NCBI GenBank assembly: GCA_027484655.1
Contig: JAIXSM010000063.1
Coordinates: 1-50,952, forward strand
Source of the DNA: Hyphomicrobiales bacterium
Lineage (GTDB): Bacteria > Pseudomonadota > Alphaproteobacteria > Rhizobiales > Beijerinckiaceae
DNA length: 50,952 nt
Direction of reading: 5' to 3'
Made by a program: the position numbers and the translations under genes. Shown here piece after piece: positions 4,767-41,621 of this stretch (the stretch's first letter is position 1; each line of letters begins with the position of its first letter). Under the pieces are notes generated by a model, which did not search any database, had not been told where the DNA came from, and saw nothing but the letters and a program-made list of their open reading frames with translations.

Positions 4767-5582
4767 ATGAAAAAGCTTCTCCTCACCACCACGGTCGCGA
4801 TGCTGGCCGCTCCGGCGATTGCCGCCGACCTGCCGAGCCGCGCCGCGCCCCCGCCGCCGGCTCCGATTGCGGCGCCGTCGGCCGCCCGCACAGTGACTGT
4901 GCTTCCCACGTTTACCTGGAGCGGCTTTTACGCCGGCGTTCAGGGCGGCTACGCGTTCGGCGCTGGCGACGGCCAGCTCACCGAAACCACGTCGGCCGCG
5001 ACCCCCGTGATCTCCAGCTTCGACCGCTCGATCAAGCCGCGCGGCTTCCTCGGCGGCCTCCATGCTGGCTATAACTTCCAGAGCGGCGGCTACGTATACG
5101 GCCTTGAGGCTGACGCCGAGTACGCGATGGTCGATGGCTCGCTGTCGTCGGCGACGTCTGCGACCGCGACGACCGTCGGCCGCTTCAGCGCCGAGCAGGA
5201 TTTCCGCGGCTCGCTGCGCGCCCGCTTCGGCCTCGCCTACGACGGCATCCTGATCTACGTCACCGGCGGCGCGGCCGCCGCGCGAATCGAGGCGACCTAC
5301 GCGGCTGCCGGACGCGCCTCGAAGAACGACGTGCTGATCGGCTGGACCGCTGGCGCCGGCGTCGAATACGCCCTGTGGAGCAACTGGTCGGCCCGCGCCG
5401 AGTATCGCTACACCAACTTCGGCGATCAGAGCGTCTCGTTCCCCGGGACGACTGTCGTGGCCGGCAACACCAGCAGCTACAAGTGGTCGGTGGACCATAC
5501 CGAGCACGCCGTGCGGGCCGGCCTTACCTACCGCTTCGGCGGCGAATCGTCCGGCGCCCGGCCGATTTTCGCCCGTTACTGA
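4767..5582 (+). CDS. Outer-membrane beta-barrel protein, Omp25/opacity type (paralogue 2)
   Basis: This encodes 271 aa with the same plan as the preceding gene: a Lys-Lys signal peptide, a Pro/Ala-rich linker, W-S-G-F-Y as the first strand, a GFLGGLHAGYN motif shared almost word for word with paralogue 1, and a terminal A-R-Y. The start at 4767 gives a proper signal peptide. An upstream in-frame ATG at 4734 would place eleven polar residues before it. The linker between signal and barrel is longer than in paralogue 1. The tandem copies probably arose by duplication and divergence. Confidence 0.9.
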   Translation: MKKLLLTTTVAMLAAPAIAADLPSRAAPPPPAPIAAPSAARTVTVLPTFTWSGFYAGVQGGYAFGAGDGQLTETTSAATPVISSFDRSIKPRGFLGGLHAGYNFQSGGYVYGLEADAEYAMVDGSLSSATSATATTVGRFSAEQDFRGSLRARFGLAYDGILIYVTGGAAAARIEATYAAAGRASKNDVLIGWTAGAGVEYALWSNWSARAEYRYTNFGDQSVSFPGTTVVAGNTSSYKWSVDHTEHAVRAGLTYRFGGESSGARPIFARY

Positions 5583-5612
5583 CCCCGCATACCTCCTTCA
5601 AATCCGCGGCAA

Positions 5613-5640
5613 ACGTCCGACCGAAAGGCCGGACGTTTTT
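5613..5640 (+). terminator. Intrinsic terminator after porin paralogue 2
   Basis: A ten-base-pair stem with one mismatch, ACGTCCG/CGGACGT outside a GAAA loop, runs into a T-tract. It also sits at the 3' end of the convergent MFS gene. Confidence 0.88.
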
Positions 5641-5644
5641 CGTT

Positions 5645-6901
5645 TCATGGCTCGCCAGCGGGTTTGCGCATGGCCAGCCAGAAGGCGACCGTTCCGACGG
5701 CGATCAGCGCAAACAGGATCCAGAGAACCGGATCATAGGATCCGAACCCCTCCCTCATGATGGCGACGGTCACCGGCGCCATGGTGCGCGGCAGGATGCA
5801 GACCGTCGTCAGCGCCCCGGCGATGGCGCCGTAGCCTCGCGTGCCGAAAATCTCCACGATTGCCGTCTGCCGCACGATCATGATGACGCCCGCGGCCATG
5901 CCGTAAACAACCGCATAGAACACGAGCCCCCACAGGCCCATGGGCGCGAGCACGATCAGGCTGAGAATGCCGAGGCCGAAAAACGGAAAGGCGATTCGGC
6001 CCGACTTGCGAGCGCTCGCCGCCGGGTCGAGCACGTAGAGCGCGAGGCGGCCCACAACGGCGGCGGGACCGCCAAAGGCGAACACCGCGACGGCGACCTC
6101 GTGCGCTACGCCGCGCTCCTGCATCATTGGCAGAAAATGGATCAGGATCGCTGTGATGACGAACCAGTGGACCGAGCAGGCGACCGCCAGCAACCAGAAC
6201 GCGGGGGTGCGCAGCGCCGAACGCAAGGGCGAGGCGCCCCCCATGGGCGCGGAGGGCGCCCTGCCCTCCGCAAGCGCCTCGCGCCGGCGCGCGAATTCTG
6301 CGGTCCGGCTGCCGACGGTGCCGCGCAACACCACCAGATAGACGAGCGTCGGCCCGACGAGCTGAGCCACCGCAAGGGCCATGAGACCGGTGCGCCACCC
6401 CCACACGGTCACCGCAAGGCTCGCAAACGGCACCACCGCAACGGAAGACAACCCCGACAGAATCGCCACCCACGTGAGCCCGCGGCGGAAATCGCGCACA
6501 TTGGCGGTCAGCGCGGCGGCGGCCACGTTGTTCAGGCACATGGATTGCGCGAACCCGATGGCGATCCAGATCGCGTAAAAGCTCCACAATGTTTCGACAC
6601 GCGACCACGCCGCCAGCAGCACCGCCGCCAGGGTTGATCCCAGCGCCATGGCGAGGCGGCCGCCATGCCGGTCCACCCAATGGCCCACCGGGATGCCGAA
6701 CAGGTCCGCGCAGAACAGTCCGATGGTGAAAGCCAGCGTAATCTGCGTGCCCGACCAGCCAAGCTCGGCCTGCATCGGGCCGACAAACAGCGAAAACGAG
6801 TGAAAAAGGACGCCGAACGTCAGGATCTGCCCGGCGGCCACGCCGAAGACGATCATGTTGTCGCTGGGCTTGTGCGGCGCAGAACGAGCGTCGGCTTTCA
6901 T
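5645..6901 (-). CDS. MFS transporter (monocarboxylate/oxalate-type 12-TM carrier)
   Basis: This encodes 418 aa with about twelve hydrophobic segments and a basic loop G-H-W-V-D-R-x-G-G between TM2 and TM3, the major-facilitator motif A. The overall look (long N-terminal half, [12 protein letters not shown] after TM1) is that of the MCT/oxalate-formate antiporter group that moves organic acids by proton coupling. The substrate is unknown. It is convergent with the porin genes and divergent from rpe, with its start about 108 bases from the rpe start. The 3' end almost touches the porin terminator. Confidence 0.88.
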
Positions 6902-39832: not shown

Positions 39833-40036
39833 TCATTGAGGCGTCGCCTTGTCCCTCTGCTCGTGATCGGCGCGCAAGGCGACCTGCTCCACGATCAGGT
39901 TGTGCCCGGGATCTGTGAGGCGCACGCTTGCAGACGAGAATGCTTCCGCAGTGGTGCGTTGCTGGGTCGCCAGAAACAGGGCGCCTGCAATCGCTACGAT
40001 GACCATGGCGACAACGGCGAAGATAAAAGCCTTCAT
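39833..40036 (-). CDS. Small membrane protein (67 aa)
   Basis: This encodes 67 aa. A single N-terminal membrane helix (residues 3-24, K-A-F-I-F-A-V-V) is followed by A-T-Q-Q-R-T-T-A-E-A-F and a D-P-G-H-N-L motif. The pattern is known among short uncharacterised Rhizobiales proteins. The start at 40036 fits the ribosome site AGAGGCAGAGCA. It is convergent with the FAD monooxygenase gene and divergent from the photolyase-like gene. Confidence 0.72.
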   Translation of the reverse strand: MKAFIFAVVAMVIVAIAGALFLATQQRTTAEAFSSASVRLTDPGHNLIVEQVALRADHEQRDKATPQ

Positions 40037-40163
40037 TGCTCTGCCTCTGGCCTGACGCCGGTCGCACCGGCGTAGGATCAAGACGGTTCGCCCTCGCCCG
40101 GTTCCGCGTCGGGCGCGGTGCGGCGGATTGTCCACAAACGCTTGCGCCCGCCGCAGCCGCGCT

Positions 40164-41621
40164 ATGTGGCAGGGTATGCGCGCCTTGCAACCACCCTGCC
40201 CCCTGCCCGGGCTCACTGTGCTTCACGCCGACGGCATCGTCACCGCCATGGGCGCGAACACGACCGCCGGCTATTGCCGCTTCAACGAGACGGGGGAAAT
40301 CGAATACCTGTTCGTCGGGCCTGCCTATCGCCGCAAGGGCGTGGCCACATGGCTGCTGGAGTGCGTCGCGCAGCAGACCGGACGCCCCCTCGTGTTCCGC
40401 GAGCCGATCAGCCCCATGGGCCGCAGGCTTGTGGACTCCTACACGGCGCGCGCGGCGCAGCCCTTCTGGACGCCGACGCGCGAGGCGGCGCTCGCGGCCC
40501 TCGGCGAATTTCTGCCGAACGCCGGGCGCGCGTACGCAGCGCGCCGGAATACGGACTACGGCCCCGATGATCGCAGCAACGTCTCGCGCCTGTCGCCGTT
40601 CATCCGGCGCCGACTGATCACCGAGGAGGAAGTGGCGCGCGCCGTACTCGACCGGCACGGCTTCGCGGCGGCCGAGAAGTTCATTCAGGAGGTGTGCTGG
40701 CGCACGTACTGGAAAGGCTGGCTGGAGCAGCGCCCGCACGTCTATGCGGCCTATCTGGCCGATGTGGAGCGCCTGTCGCGCCGGCTGGCGGCGGAGCCCC
40801 AGATCGCGGCCCGCGTGCAAGCGGCGGCGGATGGCGCGACCGGCATCGATTGCTTCGACGCATGGGCGAAAGAACTCACCGCGACCGGGTGGCTGCACAA
40901 CCATGCCCGCATGTGGTTCGCCTCCATCTGGATCTTCACGCTCGAATTGCCATGGCAACTCGGCGCGGACATGTTTGAACGCTGCCTGCTGGATGCGGAC
41001 CCCGCCTCGAACACGCTTTCGTGGCGGTGGGTCGCCGGCCTGCAAACGCTGGGCAAGCACTATGTCGCGCGCGCGGAGAACATTCGCGAACACACGAACG
41101 GCCGCTTTGACCCGCGCGGCCTGCTCAACGAGGCCGCCGAGCCCTTGCCAGATGATGGCGCGCTGGCGCGCCCTGCGGTCCCGCTGCCATCCCCCGACGC
41201 GATCCATGGGGCCCGAGTCGCTCTGCTGCTGAACGACGACGACCTGCATCCCGAAAGTCTCTGCGCGGGCCTCCCCATTGCCGGCGTCGCGGTGCTGGAG
41301 AGCGGCGAAGCGGGGTCCACCGGCAAGCGCGCCTTCCTCGAAGGCGCCCGCGCGGATGCGCTTGCCCGGGCGACCGCAGCGTTCAACGCCCCCTCGGCCG
41401 GCGTGCTCTCGCCGGCTCACGTCAGCGCATGGGCAAGGGATCTCGACGCCGACGTCGTCGTGGCGCCCCATGCCCCCGTGGGCCCGGCCGCCCGCGCGCT
41501 GGCACAGGTCTCGCCAACTCCCGCGCGGCTTCTGCGGCCCTGGGACGCGCGGGCATGGCCTCATGCCCGTGCGGGCTTCTTCCGCTTCCGCCAGCATATC
41601 CCGGACCTGCTCGACCGGTGA
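40164..41621 (+). CDS. GNAT - photolyase FAD-domain fusion with a C-terminal alpha/beta domain
   Basis: This encodes 485 aa from ATG 40164; TTG 40128 and ATG 40176 are other candidates and none has a strong ribosome site. Residues about 35-95 are a GNAT-type acetyltransferase core (Y-L-F-V-G-P-A-Y-R-R-K-G-V-A). Residues about 100-325 are the photolyase/cryptochrome FAD domain: N-T-D-Y-G-P-D-D-R-S-N-V-S-R-L-S-P, C-W-R-T-Y-W-K-G-W, G-W-L-H-N-H-A-R-M-W and W-R-W-V-A-G. Residues about 345-485 look like a Rossmann-like domain, possibly an alpha/beta photolyase domain moved to the C-terminus. Classic photolyases have it at the N-terminus. Role unknown; DNA repair or light sensing are candidates. 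Confidence 0.85.
   Translation: MWQGMRALQPPCPLPGLTVLHADGIVTAMGANTTAGYCRFNETGEIEYLFVGPAYRRKGVATWLLECVAQQTGRPLVFREPISPMGRRLVDSYTARAAQPFWTPTREAALAALGEFLPNAGRAYAARRNTDYGPDDRSNVSRLSPFIRRRLITEEEVARAVLDRHGFAAAEKFIQEVCWRTYWKGWLEQRPHVYAAYLADVERLSRRLAAEPQIAARVQAAADGATGIDCFDAWAKELTATGWLHNHARMWFASIWIFTLELPWQLGADMFERCLLDADPASNTLSWRWVAGLQTLGKHYVARAENIREHTNGRFDPRGLLNEAAEPLPDDGALARPAVPLPSPDAIHGARVALLLNDDDLHPESLCAGLPIAGVAVLESGEAGSTGKRAFLEGARADALARATAAFNAPSAGVLSPAHVSAWARDLDADVVVAPHAPVGPAARALAQVSPTPARLLRPWDARAWPHARAGFFRFRQHIPDLLDR

Follow-up and report, generated by a model that had tools for sequence, protein, structure and literature searches.

What does a gene encode that places a GNAT-like segment before the flavin adenine dinucleotide (FAD) domain of a photolyase, and an alpha/beta domain after it? 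An open reading frame of this kind, 485 codons long, lies at positions 40164–41621 (+ strand) of the window, the 50,952-nucleotide stretch of DNA analysed here, which spans positions 1 to 50,952 of contig JAIXSM010000063.1 from a Hyphomicrobiales bacterium (Beijerinckiaceae; assembly GCA_027484655.1). We think it likely that the product, hereafter the window protein, is a NewPHL-type photolyase to whose N terminus an accessory mini-GNAT has been fused. The inverted domain order is already known; the GNAT fusion was not met in the literature searched.

Three domains in an inverted order

Sequence matches and structure prediction together place the mini-GNAT first, the FAD domain in the middle and the alpha/beta domain last. 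Modelled over its full length, the protein reaches a mean predicted local distance difference test (pLDDT) score of 90.1 and a predicted template modelling score of 0.82; most of it scores above 90, the GNAT part being weakest (blocks of 54–74). An earlier note, made from the window sequence alone, had proposed this arrangement, and Pfam, the model and fold matches bear it out as an inversion of the order in classic photolyases.

The photolyase-type FAD domain covers residues 100–330 (40461..41153, + strand) and matches the Pfam family FAD_binding_7 at residues 173–319 (E = 3e-25). We aligned the window protein with 77 of 80 related loci (alignment A1; L033, L038 and L099 were dropped). Three residues are identical in all 78 rows: W287 (41022..41024, +), the tryptophan nearest FAD (E. 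coli W382); W264 (40953..40955, +), the middle tryptophan of the chain (E. coli W359); and N283 (41010..41012, +), which aligns with E. coli N378, the residue that faces FAD N5. No third tryptophan is conserved in these 78 rows. R206 sits at the position of E. coli W306, in a column whose six commonest letters do not include tryptophan; the adjacent column 205 holds one in 10 of 78 rows. W287 and W264, with no conserved third partner, match the mere tryptophan dyad of the Dinoroseobacter shibae NewPHL, as given in excerpts of PMC8948257, and this asparagine is named as conserved in NewPHL in part of PMC12083526.

The C-terminal alpha/beta domain, corresponding to the Z-domain of NewPHL, was modelled at residues 351–485 (41214..41618, +) with a pLDDT of 94.8, where the earlier note had expected such a fold. 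Its best fold matches in the PDB are the N-terminal domains of photolyases, nearly tied with universal stress proteins. The domain is tied to photolyases by fold, because sequence comparisons gave no clear link: a profile–profile comparison with 22 classic-type photolyase rows covered 19 columns and, at E = 0.027, fell short of significance, an hmmsearch of the PDB returned three weak, unrelated matches (best E = 0.038), and in Pfam DNA_photolyase was matched by 3 of 63 members (best E = 0.0025) and BLH_phosphatase by 5 of 63 (best E = 8.1e-5). Judged by its predicted fold, it is the kind of domain that opens classic photolyases, here placed last.

The earlier note had also offered two origins for the arrangement, a circularly permuted flavoprotein or a fusion. 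Fusion is what the evidence supports, whereas permutation within one domain was rejected: each domain looks complete and in normal internal order, and whole domains have been swapped.

A short GNAT at the N terminus

The mini-GNAT comprises residues 1–98 (40164..40457, +). In a Pfam scan of the whole window protein, Acetyltransf_1 was recognised at residues 35–70 with 24.9 bits against a cut-off of 20.7, and three GNAT models exceeded their curated cut-offs when residues 1–99 were scanned alone. A phmmer search of the PDB with residues 1–98 gave eight weak matches, none better than E = 0.49, and every one of them carries the name of an acetyltransferase. With a four-row mini-GNAT profile, 32 matches were obtained up to E = 1, the best at 0.0081: 29 named acetyltransferases, RibT, which we take to be a GNAT, and two uncharacterised proteins. 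When the model of the window protein was compared with viral models by Foldseek, short NAT_SF proteins of 97–118 amino acids were found (TMt 0.56–0.58, E = 0.0011 to 0.024); their matches, listed without a model range, would fall on the N-terminal part.

In GNATs, acetyl coenzyme A (acetyl-CoA) is bound by a loop of the pattern R/Q-x-x-G-x-G/A, which follows strand 4. RRKGVA at residues 56–61 (40329..40346, +) fits this pattern, and its residues R56, G59 and A61 are identical in all four mini-GNAT rows, as are E45, E47 and Y48. A full-length GNAT fold has about 140–150 residues. The domain in the window has 98, is modelled at the low pLDDT given above and matches positions 44–86 of the 116 in the Pfam profile; so short a domain may lack catalytic activity.

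The same small domain exists as a gene of its own. A gene in the same-genus genome G044 (L030, 1516–1902, − strand) encodes 128 amino acids, is 57% identical to residues 1–98 of the window protein and ends at the residue aligned with its residue 98. Apart from this gene, the only match in G044 (92% complete) is a classic-type photolyase. Two further copies encode 129 amino acids (L141, 1468–1857) and 89 amino acids (L142, 1465–1734), so that unfused mini-GNATs range from 89 to 129 amino acids and from 38 to 57% identity to the window domain. They resemble it in size and conserved motif, and differ in being separate genes. Between the GNATs of the window and L030, dN is 0.36 and dS 1.10 over 96 codons (non-synonymous and synonymous substitutions per site; dS is near saturation), a ratio of about 0.33. 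This suggests that selection has kept the GNAT for most of the time since the two split, although the signal may come from the free-standing L030 branch rather than from that of the window.

Across the alignment of the window domain with these three copies, the motifs N-T-T, G-E-x-E-Y and P-x-S-P-x-G are invariant, and the family is sparse among the alphaproteobacterial genomes sampled.

A fusion found in one genome among those searched

The junction falls at residue 99 (40458..40460, +). The L030 counterpart ends at 98, the match to the FAD-domain model begins at 100, and model pLDDT is lowest at residues 97–99. The two parts thus lie one to two residues apart in a single frame.

The long form of the protein, FAD domain followed by C-terminal domain, occurs in 27 other genomes among 200 relative genomes, the window genome included (L003–L029; L021 and L029 are cut by contig ends). 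A scan of species genomes contributed the best 80 of 589 relatives (L032–L111). Since L003 and L053 are identical and lie on contigs of equal length, 106 distinct loci remain. In the scanned set, 77 relatives align with the window protein over the FAD and C-terminal domains at 44–59% identity, and 62 of these 77 were kept with the window in alignments A2 and A3. Relatives with the same order of these two domains, for which the earlier note had suggested a search, are numerous. A tblastn search of residues 1–98 against 111 loci (E up to 1), with flanks of up to 1.5 kb for L003–L029 and 6 kb for L032–L111, matched only the window and L030; no GNAT was detected at the 107 related loci, within a sensitivity that misses GNATs too diverged for E = 1.

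Wider sampling gave the same picture. Overlapping samples, each including the window genome, were drawn at the level of genus (51 genomes), family (397), order (397), class (385) and phylum (398). GNAT matches were found in 2, 2, 2, 5 and 2 genomes, respectively; none of the samples held a second fused copy, and the match in the window was the only one in a frame longer than 400 amino acids. No fused copy was found in the viral contigs or plasmids searched, nor was a GNAT–photolyase fusion found in the open-access literature searched. Among the genomes searched, the fusion is confined to the window genome.

The photolyase part was placed in a tree of 105 rows, from which L029, L033, L099 and the non-members L030, L031, L112 and L113 were left out. 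It groups with sphingomonads, Hyphomonadaceae, Maricaulaceae and an Eremiobacterota bin (support 92 in the Shimodaira–Hasegawa-like approximate likelihood ratio test, below the 95 mark). Seven copies from its own genus (L010, L012, L016–L019 and L024) lie apart, in a nine-row clade (support 99) with two copies from the same family. This placement hints at horizontal gain of the photolyase part, or at an old paralogue.

Alternative explanations

An ordinary class I/III photolyase or a DASH cryptochrome is extremely unlikely. The named NCBIfam and PDB matches do belong to these classes, but they are limited to the FAD part and fall far below the NCBIfam cut-offs (68.5 against 317 for DASH). In the model, what stands ahead of the FAD domain is the GNAT and not an alpha/beta domain; the relatives begin at the FAD domain, and a separate classic-type photolyase is present on contig 28 of the window genome. 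Two separate genes, whose stop codon or frame change was lost by an assembly error, are unlikely. GNAT and photolyase are separate in other genomes, the window is known from one assembly without reads, and a GNAT-less protein could begin from a start codon at 40416 (residue 85). The tight, in-frame junction, in contrast, has no space for an intergenic stretch, and the genome is listed as 100% complete with 1.44% contamination.

If the fusion is genuine, the role of the GNAT has to be weighed. It may be a degenerate or non-catalytic passenger or a mere acetyl-CoA sensor, affecting at most stability or localisation, an explanation that we regard as credible while leaning against it. Its short form and the confinement of the fusion to one genome among those searched speak for it; the loop residues and E45, E47 and Y48, unchanged in all four rows, and the dN/dS ratio, with the reservation about its branch, speak against it. 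The earlier note had suggested that flavin or light controls the acetylation of a target; the photolyase part would then have turned into a sensor that switches the GNAT. Both parts are joined in one chain, and the GNAT loop and the residues surrounding FAD are intact. Nonetheless, we judge such a light- or flavin-controlled acetyltransferase most unlikely: the FAD-site and tryptophan residues are the same as in GNAT-less relatives, no relative keeps both parts together in the genomes sampled, neither a linker helix nor a target is apparent, no neighbouring gene suggests a target, and the GNAT is short. More generally, we regard any coupling of metabolism and photorepair within the one chain, whether acetylation gated by light or by the redox state of the flavin, or photorepair gated by the level of acetyl-CoA, as very unlikely.

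A NewPHL-type photolyase with an accessory mini-GNAT could work as follows. A formerly separate small GNAT gene would have been joined in frame to a photolyase gene. By analogy with the class, FAD would be photoreduced through the two-tryptophan chain of W287 and W264, and blue or near-ultraviolet light would excite the reduced FAD. A cyclobutane pyrimidine dimer (CPD), in all likelihood one located in single-stranded DNA, would split on receiving an electron from excited FADH−, and the tryptophan dyad would re-reduce the flavin. The GNAT, as a module without part in the photochemistry, would probably contribute independently, by binding acetyl-CoA or by acetylating. If confirmed in reads, the fusion would be a natural construct joining a photoenzyme to an acetyl-CoA-binding module, in which light-dependent acetylation or acetyl-CoA-dependent repair would be directly testable.

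Gene neighbourhood

The window gene is surrounded by genes for an NMT1-like binding protein, a CHCC zinc finger protein, an FAD monooxygenase and a TonB receptor. The best 80 of 589 relatives include many Roseobacteraceae as well as one Methylobacterium sp. (L085). The genes that most often flank the photolyase (clpP, clpX, aat and others, identified by eye) are contributed chiefly by close relatives within Rhodobacterales. Neither the window neighbours nor these recurrent flanking genes hint at a partner or target. Six of the 80 loci, scattered over different groups (L034, L056, L058, L093, L098 and L111), have a gene for an FAD/NAD(P)-binding oxidoreductase (label by eye) next to the inverted photolyase. 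Five annotated plasmid copies (L114–L118) are all labelled only 'FAD-binding domain-containing protein'; the oxidoreductase gene also lies beside two of them (L116 and L118), an AarF/ABC1/UbiB kinase gene near four (L114, L115, L116 and L118) and a DUF3429 gene near three (L116–L118). On the opposite strand of the window, a 127-amino-acid frame (39833–40216, −) overlaps the start of the GNAT–photolyase frame; it had no Pfam match at E = 0.01 and may be a chance frame.

Comparison with known photolyases

NewPHL photolyases were reportedly presented by Emmerich et al. in NAR in 2020, and their C-terminal domain is said to close the FAD site. Some of the short photolyase-like proteins (SPL) of Xu et al. 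(2021) are said to hold an iron–sulphur (Fe-S) cluster, whereas in the window protein no cluster of cysteines is obvious. SPL are defined in PMC9649867. SPL and NewPHL are treated together in PMC13274461, which attributes to them CPD repair in single-stranded DNA and an inverted domain topology. Characterised NewPHLs include those of D. shibae and M. mesophilicum, and the same paper lists the UniProt entries A8LJA9 and M7YZC8 as NewPHLs. The inverted order is likewise described as the NewPHL class in part of PMC9426592, which covers NewPHL including Phr7 of Prochlorococcus, the reverse-order Phr4/Phr5 and Phr6. This settles in part whether the arrangement had been described, a point on which the earlier note was undecided: the domain order had, and the GNAT fusion was not met in the literature searched.

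According to the same excerpts of PMC9426592, Phr6 and the split Phr4/Phr5 of Synechococcus/Cyanobium have the FAD domain first and the alpha/beta domain last, like the window protein. Phr4 and Phr6 differ from it in carrying Fe-S cluster cysteines, and no GNAT is mentioned for them there. A Deinococcus sp. QL22 plasmid (L120, NZ_CP097153.1) holds a split version of the FAD-first order in two genes that overlap by 4 bases: a FAD-only gene with a Cys-rich tail (4941–5714; PF03441, 5.2e-26) and a 173-amino-acid gene annotated as hypothetical (5711–6232), with a weak match to the photolyase alpha/beta domain (PF00875, 21.6 bits against a cut-off of 26.6). The pair resembles Phr4/Phr5 of picocyanobacteria.

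The closest likeness is to NewPHL including Phr7, with which the window protein has in common the FAD domain at the N terminus, the Z domain at the C terminus and the tryptophan dyad; membership of the class is probable on the basis of domain order and motifs. The window protein shows no sign of Fe-S cysteines, and the same is stated for Phr7 in PMC9426592. What sets it apart is the mini-GNAT at its N terminus, which the parts of PMC9426592 and PMC13274461 that describe NewPHL do not mention.
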